Assembly: GCF_014280235.1 (NCBI RefSeq)
Contig: NZ_CP047940.1
Span: 1,984,001 to 2,048,000 of the forward strand
DNA: 64,000 bases
Reading direction: 5' to 3'
From: Cyanobium sp. NS01
GTDB lineage: Bacteria > Cyanobacteriota > Cyanobacteriia > PCC-6307 > Cyanobiaceae
Shown here: in pieces, positions 41,700 to 47,634 of the stretch
Numbering within the stretch: the first letter of the stretch is position 1
How the letters are laid out: each line of letters starts with the position of its first letter
Notes under the pieces: model-generated
The model's database searches: none
Seen by the model: the letters and a program-made list of their open reading frames with translations, nothing else
What the model was told of the DNA's origin: nothing
Translations under genes and position numbers: made by a program

Positions 41700-42662
41700 T
41701 CAGCCGCCCAATGTAGGCAGCATCCCCAGCCCGATGGAGAACGGCTCCGCCTGGGGGAGGCGTGCCATCAGCAGCAGCAGGCTCACGCCGAACAGATAGA
41801 AGATCGACCAGCGGAACAGGGCCTTGGCGGAGGAAGGGTCGTTGGGATTGCGGCTGAGCTTGCTCACCAGTTGCAGCAGCCTGCCGTTGAAGGGCAGCAC
41901 CAGCAGGCCGTAGAACAGGCCGCCACTGGGCAGCATCCAGGCCCCCAGCAGGCTCAGCGCCACCGTCAGCCAGGCATAGCTGCTGATCGCCCGGGCCGTC
42001 ACCTGCACGCCTTTGACCACCGGAAGCATGGGGATGCCGACGGAGCGGTAGTCGTCCTTGAGCAGCAGCGCCAGGGCCCAGAAGTGGGCCGGGGTCCACA
42101 CCATCACCAAAGAGAACAACCACCAGCTGGAGGCACCGAGTTCGCCGCTGGCCGCCGCAGCTCCCACAAGGGCGGGGATGGCGCCCGCCACCCCGCCGAT
42201 CACGATGTTCTGGGGCGTGCGGGGCTTGAGCAGAGCGGTGTACAGGAGCACATAGCTGCACAACCCCAGCAGGGCCAGGCTGGCGGCCAGGGGGTTCACC
42301 CCCAGCACCAGCACCGTCACCGAGACCAGGGTGAGCGCCACGGCGAGTCCGAAGGCCTGGCGCTGGGCCAGCCGTCCCGAGGGCAGGGCCCGGCGGCTGG
42401 TGCGCTGCATGCGGCCATCGAGTTCCTGCTCCCAGAGGCAGTTGAGCACCCCTGCCGCTGCGGAGGCCAGGGCGCCGCCCAGCAGGGTGCAGAGCACCAC
42501 GGGAGTGGTGATGCTGGAGCCACTCACGGCCATGCCGGCCAGGGTGGTGGCCAGCAACAGCGGAATCAGCCGGGGCTTGGCCACCTCCAGCCAGGCCGGC
42601 AGGCGCACCGAGGGGCGCACCGCAGGGGGCTGGGCCATGGGCAGGGCAGAGAGGCTCACCAT
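41700..42662 (-). CDS. ctaB: Protoheme IX farnesyltransferase
   Basis: Converts heme b to heme o for cytochrome oxidase. UbiA-fold motifs: [45 protein letters not shown] (Asp motif 1), [22 protein letters not shown], and [24 protein letters not shown] (Asp motif 2). 320 residues with about nine membrane segments. It follows ctaA with a 3-base gap. Confidence 0.96.
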
Positions 42663-42665
42663 GGA

Positions 42666-43721
42666 TCAGCTCAGGGGAGAGGGGGATGGGGATGTTGAGG
42701 GGGGCCGGCCGGCCAGGCCAGGCAGCTGGCCCAGCAGGCCGGCGAGCACGGCCACCAGCAGGGCCGCACCGAGCTGGTGAGCGATGGTCACGGCGGGCAC
42801 GGCGAGGGCCAGCCTCAGGGTGGTGACGCCCAGGACCAGCTGGGCCACCACCAGCAGGGCGCCGCCGAGGGCCAGCAGGCGGGTCGAGCGCGGCAGGGCA
42901 GGACAGAGGGCGGCGAGGGCGGCCACAGCCAGCACGGCACCCCCGGCCGCAGGGGCCAGCTGGCGATGCAGCAGCAGCCAGCGGCAGTCATCGCCGGCAG
43001 CCAGACAGCGATCAGCGGCCCAGTGGCTGGCCATCCAGGCCCCGAGCAGGCTCTGGCAGAACACCAGCAGCAGGGCGGCGCAGACAGCCAGGCCCCAGAC
43101 GAGTCGCCAGGGCCGCTCCAGGGGAGCCGTGCCGGGCTGAGAGTGCCGCTTGAGAGCCTGCTGCAGCTTCAGGGCCTGGTGCAGCCCACTGAGCAGGGCC
43201 AGCAGGCTGAGGGCCGCAGCCAGATGAGCCGTCACCATCGAGGAGGCCAGCAGCCGGGTCACGGTGAGGGCACCAAGACCTCCCTGCACGGCCACCAGGG
43301 CCAGGGCCAGGCCGGAGGCCCAGGGAAGCCAGCCGGGCAGCTGACGGCGGCCCACCAGGCTGGCGGCGGCCATCACCAGCAGGGCGACCCCCACCACGAA
43401 GGCGTCGAGCCGGTGAAACCACTCCAGAAACACCTGCAGGTTCATCTGCCGGCCAGGCAGCAGCACGCCGTAGCAGAGCGGCCAGTCAGGGCAGGCCAGG
43501 CCGGCCTGCATGACCCTGGTGGCCCCACCGATCACCACCAGGGCCACCAAGGCCACCACCAGGTGGCCACTCAGGCGGCTGAGCTGCCCGAGCCGATCGG
43601 CCTGCCGTGGGGTCAGGTGATCAGCAGGGGAGCCGGCCTGGATGGGACCTGCCTGAGGGGACACGGCCTCGGCCGGGGCCCCAGAGTCGGGCGTCTGGGA
43701 TGGCCGCAGGCCTGTCTGCAT
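42666..43721 (-). CDS. ctaA: Heme A synthase (Cox15/CtaA)
   Basis: Oxidises heme o to heme a. The 351-residue protein has eight hydrophobic segments and heme-ligand His sites: IGGATRVMQAGLACPDWPLCYGVLLPG, FLEWFHRLDAFVVG, MVTAHLAAALSLLALLSGLHQAL, WLLLHRQLAPA, and TIAHQLGAALLVAV. The extracytoplasmic loop contains a Cys pair (DRCLAAGDDC). A ~50-residue Pro-rich N-terminal tail precedes the first helix. Divergent from ctaC across 206 bases. Confidence 0.95.
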   Translation of the reverse strand: MQTGLRPSQTPDSGAPAEAVSPQAGPIQAGSPADHLTPRQADRLGQLSRLSGHLVVALVALVVIGGATRVMQAGLACPDWPLCYGVLLPGRQMNLQVFLEWFHRLDAFVVGVALLVMAAASLVGRRQLPGWLPWASGLALALVAVQGGLGALTVTRLLASSMVTAHLAAALSLLALLSGLHQALKLQQALKRHSQPGTAPLERPWRLVWGLAVCAALLLVFCQSLLGAWMASHWAADRCLAAGDDCRWLLLHRQLAPAAGGAVLAVAALAALCPALPRSTRLLALGGALLVVAQLVLGVTTLRLALAVPAVTIAHQLGAALLVAVLAGLLGQLPGLAGRPPSTSPSPSPLS

Positions 43722-43927: not shown

Positions 43928-44797
43928 GTGCAGATCCGCACAGCCCTCACCACCGTGCTGGCCACGACTGGCCTTGTGGGAACAGGGCTCCTGGTGGGCA
44001 ATCGGGTGAACATGCTGCCGCTCGATGCGAGCAGCAACGCCGCCACCTACGATTCCCTTTTTAAGGTTTTATTCAGCATTGGCACGATGCTGTTCCTCGG
44101 CATCACCATTGTTTTGGTGTACAGCCTGCTGCGGTTTCGCCGCACCGCCGGCGACACCAGCGACGGTGTGGCCATTGAGGGCAACCTGCCCCTCGAAATC
44201 GTCTGGACTGCGATACCAGCGGTGGTCATTCTTTTCGTTGGTATCTATAGCTACGACATCTACGAGCGCATGGGCGGCATGGCCCCCCTCATGGACCATG
44301 CCGCCATGGATCACAGCGCCATGGATCACAGCACCATCGACCAGGCCGCCCTCGTCAGTGACAGCCCCGGCCCAGACCCGGAGCGCATCTGGGGGGGCAT
44401 CGGCGCTGCCGCCACCCCTGATCAGACAGGCGTGGTTCCCCCGACCCTGCCGGTGGAGGTGACGGCCATGCAGTTCGCCTTCATCTTCCATTACCCCCAG
44501 GGGGACATCACCAGCGGCGAGCTGCATGTGCCGCTGGGCCAGCCCGTGGAGCTGCGCATGGAGGCCCGCGATGTGATCCACGCCTTCTGGGTGCCGCAGT
44601 TCCGCCTCAAGCAGGATGTGATTCCGGGCCAGACCACCCAGCTCTCCTTCACCCCCACCCGCGCCGGCACCTACCCGATCGTCTGCGCCGAACTCTGCGG
44701 GGCCTACCACGGCGGCATGCGCTCCAACGTGGTGGTGCATGAACGCGAGAGCTTCGACGCCTGGCTGGCGCAGAACACCCCCACCACGAGCACCTGA
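43928..44797 (+). CDS. ctaC: Cytochrome c oxidase subunit II
   Basis: It accepts electrons from cytochrome c or plastocyanin at the binuclear CuA centre. Two transmembrane helices (LFKVLFSIGTMLFLGITIVLVYSL and LEIVWTAIPAVVILFVGIYSY) lead to a cupredoxin domain with the CuA site CAELCGAYHGGM and the upstream ligand His in DVIHAFWVP. Between helix 2 and the cupredoxin domain is an insert with repeated MDHxxMDH units (from residue ~115). GTG 43928 is the start. First gene of ctaCDE. Confidence 0.96.
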   Translation: MQIRTALTTVLATTGLVGTGLLVGNRVNMLPLDASSNAATYDSLFKVLFSIGTMLFLGITIVLVYSLLRFRRTAGDTSDGVAIEGNLPLEIVWTAIPAVVILFVGIYSYDIYERMGGMAPLMDHAAMDHSAMDHSTIDQAALVSDSPGPDPERIWGGIGAAATPDQTGVVPPTLPVEVTAMQFAFIFHYPQGDITSGELHVPLGQPVELRMEARDVIHAFWVPQFRLKQDVIPGQTTQLSFTPTRAGTYPIVCAELCGAYHGGMRSNVVVHERESFDAWLAQNTPTTST

Positions 44798-44847: not shown

Positions 44848-46473
44848 ATGACGATCGCCAGTCCAGGCCCTCTGCCCCAGGAGGGTCTGCAGCCCACCGG
44901 GTGGGCCCGCTATCTCAGCTTCAGCCTCGATCACAAGGTGATCGGGCTTCAGTATCTGGTGTGCGGCTTTGCCTTCTATCTGGTGGGAGGGGCGCTGGCC
45001 GGTGTGATCCGCACCGAGCTGGTCAGTCCGATGTCCGACTTCGTGAGCCGTGACACCTACAACGAGGTGCTGACGCTGCACGGCACGGTGATGATCTTTC
45101 TGTGGATCGTGCCCGTGGTCAATGGCGGCTTCGGCAACTATCTGATTCCCTTCTACGTCGGCGCCCGGGACATGGCCTTCCCGAGGCTCAATGCCGTGGC
45201 CTTCTGGATGATTCCGCCGGCTGGCATCCTGCTGATCAGCAGCTATTTCCTGGCGGGCGCCGCTGCCCAGTCCGGCTGGACAGCCTACCCACCCCTCAGT
45301 CTCACCACCCCGGCTGCCGGCCAGGTGGTGTGGATTCTGAGTGTGCTGCTGCTGGGGGGCAGTTCCATCTTCGGCGCCATCAATTTCATCGCCACGGTGC
45401 TGAAGCTGCGCCGCCCTGGCCTGAAGATGATGCAGTTGCCGATGTACTGCTGGGCGATGCTGGGCACCAGCCTGCTGGTAGTGCTCTCAACCCCTGTGCT
45501 GGCCGGCGTGTTGATCCTGCTGAGCTTCGACATCGTGGCCCACACCGGCTTCTTCAACCCGGCCCTGGGCGGCAACGTGGTGGTCTACCAGCACCTCTTC
45601 TGGTTCTATTCCCATCCAGCCGTGTACATCATGGTGCTGCCGGCCTTCGGCCTGGTCAGCGAAATCCTGCCGGTGCATGCCCGCAAGCCCCTGTTCGGCT
45701 ACACCACCATGGTGTACTCGATCATGGGCATCGTGGGGCTGGGCCTGATCGTGTGGGCCCACCACATGTTCACTAGTGGCACACCCCCCTGGATGCGGCT
45801 GTTTTTCACCATTGCCACCTCATTCATTGCGGTGCCCACGGGCATCAAGTTCTTCAACTGGATCGCCACCCTGTGGGGAGGCAAGATCGCCCTCAACTCG
45901 GCGATGCTGTTTTCATGCGGCTTCATTCTGAACTTCGTGTTCGGCGGCATCACAGGCATCAGCCTGGCCCAGGTGCCCTTCGACATCCATGTTCATGACA
46001 CCTACTTTGTAGTGGGTCATTTTCACTACATCGTCTACGGAGGCACGGTGTTTGTGATCTTCGCCTCGCTCTACCACTGGTATCCGAAGTTCACGGGCCG
46101 TCTGCTCAACGAGGATCTGGGTCGCCTGCACTTCGTGCTCACCCTGATCGGCTTCCAGCTCTGCTTCCTGCCCCAGCACTGGCTGGGGCTGAATGGCATG
46201 CCCAGGCGCGTGGCGGAATACGACCCGGCCTTCACCACGCTCAACCAGGTGAGCAGCGTGGGGGCCCTGATCATGGCGATCAGCATCCTGCCGCTGTTGA
46301 TCAACGTGGTGATCACGGCCAGGAATGGTGAACCGGCAGGCGACAATCCCTGGAACGCCCTGACGCCGGAATGGCTCACCTCCTCGCCCCCTCCGGTGGA
46401 GAACTGGAAGGGGGATGCCCCCCTCGTCACCGAGCCCTACGGCTACGGCACCCGTCCTGAGGCCCAGTCATGA
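44848..46473 (+). CDS. ctaD: Cytochrome c oxidase subunit I
   Basis: Carries heme a and the heme a3-CuB centre. Heme/CuB ligands are visible in LTLHGTVMIFLWIVP, HLFWFYSHPAVYIMVLP, GLIVWAHHMFTSG and HDTYFVVGHFHYIVYGG. The K-channel region TSFIAVPTGIKFFNW is intact. 541 residues with twelve membrane segments, the standard aa3 type. Overlaps ctaE by ATGA. Confidence 0.98.
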   Translation: MTIASPGPLPQEGLQPTGWARYLSFSLDHKVIGLQYLVCGFAFYLVGGALAGVIRTELVSPMSDFVSRDTYNEVLTLHGTVMIFLWIVPVVNGGFGNYLIPFYVGARDMAFPRLNAVAFWMIPPAGILLISSYFLAGAAAQSGWTAYPPLSLTTPAAGQVVWILSVLLLGGSSIFGAINFIATVLKLRRPGLKMMQLPMYCWAMLGTSLLVVLSTPVLAGVLILLSFDIVAHTGFFNPALGGNVVVYQHLFWFYSHPAVYIMVLPAFGLVSEILPVHARKPLFGYTTMVYSIMGIVGLGLIVWAHHMFTSGTPPWMRLFFTIATSFIAVPTGIKFFNWIATLWGGKIALNSAMLFSCGFILNFVFGGITGISLAQVPFDIHVHDTYFVVGHFHYIVYGGTVFVIFASLYHWYPKFTGRLLNEDLGRLHFVLTLIGFQLCFLPQHWLGLNGMPRRVAEYDPAFTTLNQVSSVGALIMAISILPLLINVVITARNGEPAGDNPWNALTPEWLTSSPPPVENWKGDAPLVTEPYGYGTRPEAQS

Positions 46474-47099
46474 CCACCACCAACTCCTCCGACAGCTCGC
46501 TGCTGAGCAGCCCTGCAGCGGCTGCCCCAACCGCTGAGGCCAGCACCGAGGCCGACCTGCACGCCGATGTGCGCATGTTCGGCCTCACCACCTTCCTGGT
46601 GGCCGATGGCATGACCTTTGCGGGCTTCTTCGCGGCCTACCTCACCTTCAAAGCGGTGAATCCGCTGCCCGAGGGCAGCATCTACGAGCTGGAGCTGCTG
46701 CTGCCCACCATCAACACCGTGCTGCTGGTGCTGAGCAGCTTCACCTTCCACCGCGCCGGCCGCGAGATCCGCGCCAATCGCCTGGCCGCCTGCCGCACCT
46801 GGTTGCTGGTGTCCGCCGGCCTCGGAGCCACCTTTCTGGCCGGCCAGATGGTGGAGTACTTCACCCTGCCCTTCGGCCTCACCGACAACCTCTTTGCCAG
46901 CACCTTCTATGCCCTCACGGGCTTCCACGGTCTGCACGTGACCCTGGGGGTGATCTGCATCCTGATCGTGGCCCTGCAGACCCGCAGCGGTGGTCGGATC
47001 AGCGCTGAGAAGCATTTCGGCCTCGAGGCCGCAGAACTCTACTGGCACTTTGTGGACGGCATCTGGGTGGTGCTCTACGGCATCCTTTACGTGCTCTGA
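46470..47099 (+). CDS. ctaE: Cytochrome c oxidase subunit III
   Basis: The short, five-helix type: FGLTTFLVADGMTFAGFFAAYLTFK, TINTVLLVLSSFTFHRA, STFYALTGFHGLHVTLGVICILI and LYWHFVDGIWVVLYGILYVL. The FHGLHVTLG and WHFVDGIW motifs are diagnostic. 209 residues, coupled to ctaD. Confidence 0.97.
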   Translation: MTTTNSSDSSLLSSPAAAAPTAEASTEADLHADVRMFGLTTFLVADGMTFAGFFAAYLTFKAVNPLPEGSIYELELLLPTINTVLLVLSSFTFHRAGREIRANRLAACRTWLLVSAGLGATFLAGQMVEYFTLPFGLTDNLFASTFYALTGFHGLHVTLGVICILIVALQTRSGGRISAEKHFGLEAAELYWHFVDGIWVVLYGILYVL

Positions 47100-47184: not shown

Positions 47185-47634
47185 ATGAGTCCCAGCAGTG
47201 GCGGTGGTCCGGGCGGGATGCTCGAAGGCAAGGCCCTGCTCGACAGGGCCAGAGCCCTCAGCGACCAGCCCGAAGACCTGATTGCCCGCGCCTGTGGGTA
47301 CGTCGGCCCCAGTGGCCGCGTGCTCAGGAAGAGTTTCCACAAGGCCCTGGTGGCCGCCAAGGGCTACCCCGTTCCCGAGGCGAGCTCCGGTCGCAGCGCC
47401 GCCGCCCCAGGCCCCGGCAAGGGGCGGCAGGCGGAGTTCCGCACCCGCGTGCACGGCAACGGCAATCTGCTGATCGGCAACGCCTACACCCGCCGGCTGG
47501 GGCTGCAGCCCGGCCAGGAATTCCGCATCGAACTGCAGCGGGACAGCCGCTCCATCCGGCTGCTGCCGCTCCAAGACGGCGAGTTCCCCGAGGCCGAAGC
47601 CAGCGACGACACCGCTTCAGCGGGGTGCGACTGA
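47185..47634 (+). CDS. cyAbrB-type transcriptional regulator
   Basis: Cyanobacterial AbrB-like proteins are DNA-binding regulators of nitrogen and carbon metabolism. The 149-residue protein has the cyAbrB N-terminal region LEGKALLDRARALSDQPEDLIARACGYV...FHKALVAAKGY. The C-terminal half is the AbrB swapped-hairpin domain: RVHGNGNLLIGNAYTRRLGLQPGQEFRIEL then SIRLLPL. ATG 47185 is chosen because upstream codons show no family resemblance. It stands alone after ctaE. Confidence 0.88.
   Translation: MSPSSGGGPGGMLEGKALLDRARALSDQPEDLIARACGYVGPSGRVLRKSFHKALVAAKGYPVPEASSGRSAAAPGPGKGRQAEFRTRVHGNGNLLIGNAYTRRLGLQPGQEFRIELQRDSRSIRLLPLQDGEFPEAEASDDTASAGCD

Follow-up and report, generated by a model that had tools for sequence, protein, structure and literature searches.

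A methionine- and histidine-rich linker in cyanobacterial cytochrome c oxidase subunit II, a possible copper-collecting segment

The window, the 64,000-nucleotide stretch of Cyanobium sp. NS01 DNA analysed here, encodes a cytochrome c oxidase subunit II (CtaC) in which the linker that joins the second transmembrane helix to the CuA domain is rich in methionine and histidine. This linker is not a local oddity, some version of it being found in most of the cyanobacterial sequences examined. The protein family is known; the linker variant is apparently undescribed, and no description of a Met/His-rich linker in cyanobacterial subunit II was found in the open-access literature searched. From the sequences compared below, we tentatively propose that the linker may be a built-in copper-collecting segment acting in cis for the copper sites of the oxidase, CuB included, a reading that we consider possible but somewhat short of probable.

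The ctaC locus and its product

The features of the window on which the text relies are the following.

41700..42662, minus strand: ctaB, probable protoheme farnesyltransferase of the UbiA family (Pfam UbiA), divergent
42666..43721, minus strand: ctaA, COX15/CtaA heme A synthase (Pfam COX15-CtaA), divergent
43928..44797, plus strand: ctaC, cytochrome c oxidase subunit II, GTG start, 289 aa (Pfam COX2_TM and COX2)
44186..44269, plus strand: second transmembrane helix, residues 87-114 (AlphaFold2 helix; Pfam COX2_TM)
44270..44446, plus strand: whole linker, residues 115-173, 59 aa (low pLDDT; alignment gaps)
44270..44344, plus strand: Met/His-rich segment MGGMAPLMDHAAMDHSAMDHSTIDQ, residues 115-139 (translation; Met/His statistics)
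44290..44343, plus strand: 15-bp tandem repeat coding for MDHAA-MDHSA-MDHST-IDQ (Tandem Repeats Finder score 52)
44384..44401, plus strand: RIWGGI anchor, residues 153-158 (kept by the picocyanobacterial relatives; Met/His scarce after it)
44447..44797, plus strand: CuA cupredoxin domain and tail (CuA ligands by alignment; Foldseek to solved COX2)
44848..46473, plus strand: ctaD, subunit I, which carries CuB (Pfam COX1, E 5.8e-157)
46470..47099, plus strand: ctaE, subunit III (Pfam COX3)

The genes are thus arranged in the order ctaC, ctaD, ctaE, the COX1 and COX3 genes lying directly downstream of ctaC, and ctaA and ctaB are divergent upstream. Directly 3' of ctaE, on the same strand, a gene for an AbrB-like regulator was found (47185-47631). 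None of the 11 neighbouring proteins scanned is a known copper chaperone, and the idea that a neighbouring assembly gene acts as the copper loader was dropped on this ground.

The GTG start of ctaC matches the starts of its relatives in the alignment. When analysed with Pfam, the product matched COX2_TM at residues 33-111 (52.8 bits, cut-off 22.8) and COX2 at residues 199-265 (53.7 bits, cut-off 22). All six CuA ligands (H218, C253, E255, C257, H261 and M264) are present, in columns that are invariant or nearly so in the cyanobacterial CtaC alignment. CtaC truly belongs to the COX2 family, as a CuA-type subunit II. It shares with other COX2/CtaC proteins (PF02790 and PF00116; for example 2yev chain B, which we take to be Thermus COX2, and chain B of Paracoccus 1ar1/7au3) the two-helix hairpin, the CuA cupredoxin domain with all its ligands and the ctaCDE gene order.

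An AlphaFold2 model of CtaC was built from 30 aligned cyanobacterial sequences. Foldseek grouped this model with solved COX2 chains, which confirmed the COX2 fold; no cyanobacterial oxidase was named among the titles of the top 50 matches. Averaged over 10 residues, the pLDDT values were 47-67 across residues 111 to 170 and 85-97 from residue 171 on, except for 68 and 79 at residues 251-270. According to the model, the linker (residues 115-173) is probably disordered. Beyond confirming the COX2 fold, neither the AlphaFold2 model nor Foldseek brings information on the linker.

According to PMC9145763, PCuAC has a disordered C-terminal tail rich in His and Met. CtaC is not a PCuAC: no match to PF04314 was observed in it at E 0.001, and the H(M)-x10-M-x21-H-x-M motif is missing from the window CtaC and from the 90 representatives described below (0/90). 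Moreover, the segment of CtaC stands in cis on the target protein, whereas PCuAC is a separate chaperone.

Distribution and composition of the linker

The initial annotation of this DNA had pointed out a Met/His-rich insert that follows the second transmembrane helix and precedes the CuA domain. This insert is real and corresponds to MGGMAPLMDHAAMDHSAMDHSTIDQ at residues 115-139. In the window CtaC, the linker contains 8 Met/His in 59 aa (binomial P = 0.002, against a background of 3.9% Met/His obtained from the 11 neighbouring proteins). The evidence from the clade, given below, is stronger. The copper-handling-like character attributed to the segment is supported.

By protein search, relatives of CtaC were detected in 56 of the 60 nearest-kin genomes (44/44 of the good ones), in 373/400 genomes of the family and in 145/146 genomes of the class. 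Absence of the insert from close relatives, part of what had been named as refuting a copper role for it, was checked and did not occur: among the best 30 loci, the window's own included, all 29 relatives have MGGM and, behind it in the linker, no fewer than two other Met/His, in a stretch that differs in sequence and length.

The comparison was then extended to 201 CuA-type cyanobacterial linkers, drawn from two collections and including 2 repeated proteins and 17 repeated linkers, from which 90 representatives were retained, using a threshold of 85% identity over the rest of the protein. L025 was excluded from the representatives, being too short, and four sequences in which the pattern found no linker were left out (L105, L108, L116 and L132), one of which, L108, does show a Met/His-rich linker. 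The length of the linker, which the initial annotation had proposed to compare, varies across cyanobacteria from 36 to 98 aa, with a median of 57 aa (90 representatives).

In these 90 representatives, Met and His together account for 19.6% of the first, membrane-proximal half of the linker (the leading residue being excluded from the first-half counts), for 3.0% of the second half and for 6.0% of the CuA domain and tail. His contributes 10.1%, Met 8.8% and Cys 0% in the first half. The first half is richer than the second in 81/90 representatives, with 2 ties and 7 reversed cases (Wilcoxon P = 1.9e-14, a value to be taken only as a guide since related sequences are non-independent). Six of the seven reversed linkers have their Met/His placed later (L075, L084, L086, L093, L098 and L115), and L088 is the single reversed linker that is Met/His-poor. 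Beyond the first residue, the CuA-type linkers contain a median of 6 Met/His; at least 4 are present in 187/201 and at most 2 in 5/201.

The linker begins with MGG in 76/90 and with xGG in 85/90 representatives. A W[GA]G[IL] anchor is present in 120/201 linkers, and in these 120 picocyanobacterial-type linkers Met and His amount to 20.4% before the W[GA]GI anchor versus 1.7% after it. RIWGGI forms a conserved island inside the otherwise freely varying picocyanobacterial linker. Before the anchor, Met and His reach 24.9% in the AT-rich loci (43) and 18.3% in the GC-rich ones (45). Since the enrichment is found in AT-rich and GC-rich loci alike, base composition is not its driver, and composition bias was ruled out as the cause. 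Sequence and length thus drift while Met/His persists, which indicates that the content is kept and the sequence is not.

His residues are furthermore clustered. Pairs of His at i+1, i+2 and i+3 were observed 42, 50 and 56 times, compared with 24, 23 and 22 times when the same halves were shuffled; this excess is about twofold and becomes smaller at i+4 and i+5. His clustering at such short spacings is typical of metal sites. For Met pairs, no spacing preference beyond composition was detected, except a weak one at i+5 (24 versus 16.1 in shuffled halves, sd 3.8), a spacing expected from the MDHxA repeat.

The near-repeats in the underlying DNA had been read as a sign of expansion by slippage. 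This interpretation is not demonstrated, as the peptide repeat alone accounts for them. At 44290-44343, Tandem Repeats Finder (TRF) reported 3.6 copies of a 15-bp unit, with 82% matches and a score of 52. The same score was reached by 2/2000 dinucleotide shuffles of the 281-bp region, by 18/2000 codon-order shuffles and by 1505/2000 synonymous recodings of the same peptide. Because of this last result, the DNA repeat fails to demonstrate slippage, which was not retained as the cause, the encoded peptide being enough to impose the repetition. The identity of the D, H and S codons in repeat units 2 and 3 has a chance probability of about 0.11, and the GCCATGGAYCAY pattern, with one mismatch allowed, has 4 sites in the window for 2.37 expected, two of them in ctaC. 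In a set of 207 distinct linkers, comprising CuA-less ones and two outgroup sequences, period-15 repeats are present in 9 (L001, L002, L004, L005, L031, L033, L035, L046 and L047), and their units differ between linkers (e.g. MDHSA, MHEAA, MDHAA and MDPTQ). Any TRF tandem repeat is found in 22/207, so that most linkers are devoid of repeats. Local duplication probably happens in these linkers, the DNA not being a proof of it.

Outside the cyanobacteria, the linker was compared in a narrow outgroup of 15 COX2 sequences, all from plasmid records, belonging to 11 alpha-, 1 beta- and 1 gammaproteobacterium and 2 haloarchaea; they represent 15 of the 40 rows among the matches listed, the full number of matching records being 690. 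In this outgroup, the mean linker is 14 aa with 0.33 Met+His, almost none, whereas the window CtaC has its 59-aa Met/His-rich linker and the same method gave a mean of 59.5 aa and 6.9 Met+His for 88 of the 90 cyanobacterial representatives (L117 and L162 being left out). In two outgroup sequences (L224 and L229), the end of the linker was placed by fallback, and in that of Halostagnicola (L223), HALAHPM lies just upstream of the stretch counted as linker.

A quick tree was built without the linker and rooted at its midpoint for drawing only. Its 13 CuA-less rows are all on one side of a branch with a support of 100. As drawn, families f13 and f31 are the lowest-branching CuA-type rows, and they contain only 2-3 Met/His beyond the first residue. 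Should these lowest branches be cyanobacteria without thylakoids, a rich linker would be tied to the lineages that possess them. Other Met/His-poor tips are scattered on the tree, and at least 8 changes between poor (at most 3) and rich (at least 4 Met/His) linkers are required across the 95 CuA-type rows. One deep-branching CuA-type subunit II (L242, region of G463:C1:3401160) has a linker without His that carries GLGCTVDCPMI; its CxxxC and Met make it a possible candidate for a thiol version of the metal strip.

CuA-less paralogues and copper-insertion factors

The window genome also encodes a second subunit II, of the type found in the cyanobacterial alternative oxidase (ARTO), without the CuA ligands (G000:C1:834900-836100). 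In PMC6616624, the ARTO-type subunit II is described as devoid of CuA, and this CuA-less type as devoid of a binding site for soluble donors. A total of 32 CuA-less paralogues were read and reduced to 23 representatives, L265 being left out. Their linkers are shorter than those of the CuA type (mean 37.4 aa, with a mean of 4.2 Met/His) and likewise Met/His-rich at their start: Met and His account for 17.7% of the first half versus 2.4% of the second, the first being higher in 19/23. These linkers often contain GPMExVHxH, and PM..H is present in 14/23. Two of the 23 have no Met/His at all, namely L257 and the window genome's own copy, L118. Unlike the latter, the CuA-less copies L129 and L130 of the same genus carry GGHAAMHG.

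The suggestion that the segment serves CuA specifically is therefore not supported, since the CuA-less paralogues are equally Met/His-dense at the same place. The feature is not specific to CuA, and a coupling to CuA as its sole role was rejected. As both types share the Met/His concentration, either the client that they have in common would be the CuB site of subunit I, or the segment does something other than deliver copper.

Copper-insertion factors were searched for in 60 cyanobacterial genomes, 37 from the window's family and 23 from further families (one for each). Of these, 16 are outside the good class, defined as 90% complete and at most 5% contaminated. Each family search gave matches in some of 14 control genomes. 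Cox11, PCuAC and Caa3_CtaG were each found in 0/60 genomes (0/44 among the good ones), and PCuAC (PF04314) gave no match in the window genome. For Sco, a marginal match was obtained in 3/60 genomes, the same 3 among the 44 good ones, and one of them was barely above the cut-off. These three were rejected, being AhpC-TSA peroxiredoxins with far better scores for that family (Pfam E 1.6e-44 to 7.1e-38) and without CxxxC. The 60 cyanobacterial genomes thus contain no convincing Sco, PCuAC, Cox11 or Caa3_CtaG.

YtkA/CtaK and CopC were each detected in 1/60 genomes. The only CopC is a domain in a 581-aa open frame (G039:C1:1594145-1594420). YtkA domains occur twice in the other genome, G047 (L141 and L142), one on a CusB/HlyD-type protein that also displays a Met/His-rich stretch, MEGHDMSGMSHDDMM, and the other in a small adjoining frame. 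In B. subtilis, the His-rich C-terminal end EEEHSHHH of CtaK (YtkA, PF13115) has been proposed to bind copper for the oxidase, according to PMC9145763. CtaK differs from CtaC in being an unrelated lipoprotein.

The same source (PMC9145763) indicates that Sco together with PCuAC or a CtaK-type protein is generally required for CuA at low copper, that the disordered His/Met-rich tail of PCuAC carries Cu(II), and that CuA can form without protein factors when copper and reduced cysteines are available. For Synechocystis, PMC4284471 describes a copper route through CtaA, Atx1 and PacS, a pathway presented as under discussion, and less oxidase activity when ctaA or pacS is mutated. Taken with this literature, the lack of a convincing Sco, PCuAC, Cox11 or Caa3_CtaG in the 60 genomes lends plausibility to a segment of subunit II that collects copper, and the context fits copper loading.

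Sco and PCuAC were also absent (0/7) from seven genomes chosen as having a Met/His-poor CuA-type linker; six of them have at most 3 Met/His, and G528, with 6 on recount, is not poor. A simple compensation, with poor linkers where the chaperones exist, was thus not borne out, since the poor genomes are also without Sco and PCuAC. It follows that neither the strip nor these chaperones are indispensable, and that the segment is not strictly needed to replace those factors.

Possible roles of the linker

CtaC is an ordinary CuA-type subunit II. In the proposed mechanism, its linker would have turned into a segment that collects metal, rich in Met/His, probably disordered and anchored to the surface of the membrane. 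This segment would bind the Cu(I)/Cu(II) that P-type ATPases, such as PacS/CtaA in the published Synechocystis model, bring into the lumen or periplasm. It would then raise the local copper supply for CuB of subunit I, which is common to CuA-type and CuA-less oxidases, and, where present, for CuA. In this manner, the segment would do in cis part of the work done elsewhere in trans by Sco, Cox11 and the His/Met tail of PCuAC. We infer that it binds copper, that it hands this copper on and that CuB is one of its clients.

Other explanations were weighed against the same data. If the linker were a chaperone in cis whose copper goes to the adjacent CuA site and nowhere else, its position directly before the CuA domain, the lack of a convincing Sco or PCuAC gene in the 60 genomes and the greater length and richness of the CuA-type linkers (medians of 57 aa and 6 Met/His, compared with the CuA-less means given above) would all be accounted for; however, the CuA-less paralogues are just as dense in Met/His at this place, and we consider this restriction to CuA quite unlikely. 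A metal-free role in structure or docking is unlikely as well. Here Met/His would serve for a response to pH or for contact of the linker with one of three partners: subunit I, the lipid surface, and the electron donors (plastocyanin and cytochrome c6). Such contacts are in keeping with the MGG or xGG start, with the PM..H shared by many ARTO linkers and with the conserved RIWGGI-type anchor of picocyanobacteria. On the other hand, the sequence and the length between the anchors vary while the Met/His content persists, His is clustered at short spacings, and Met/His is kept in the CuA-less type, which is without the soluble-donor site according to PMC6616624.

The Met/His composition would also suit a buffer, antioxidant or detoxification strip, binding stray copper or quenching lumenal oxidants without feeding the enzyme. 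Cyanobacterial lumens are exposed to both copper and oxidants, but quenching needs no His clustering, and this role appears very unlikely. Finally, a tolerant, disordered linker could have drifted neutrally towards low complexity, with an MDHxA repeat expanded by slippage or recombination. The highly variable length of the linker and the 15-bp periodic repeats of 9/207 distinct linkers are what this highly improbable explanation has in its favour. Yet the second half of the linker also varies and is nevertheless Met/His-poor (3.0%; 1.7% after the anchor), the Met/His bias is common to AT-rich and GC-rich lineages, TRF repeats are present in only 22/207 linkers and the peptide suffices to explain the repetition of the DNA. 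Neutral drift is strongly disfavoured for the family, though the exact number of copies in this genome might still be due to it.

The proposal of a built-in copper-collecting segment may be extended to a broader one, which we put forward as doubtful: cyanobacteria would use no separate Sco, PCuAC, Cox11 or CtaG chaperone and would supply the copper sites of their heme-copper oxidases through a relay inside subunit II. This relay would be a membrane-anchored, fast-evolving Met/His strip, held in content and not in sequence, serving CuB always and CuA in the CuA-type enzymes, and it would have gained length and Met/His in the crown lineages, compared with the deepest branches. In the literature consulted, the route of copper insertion into cyanobacterial oxidases is an open point, for which the strip offers a concrete and testable candidate. 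If this is true, a metallochaperone function would be built into its own client, and selection would act on composition and not on sequence.
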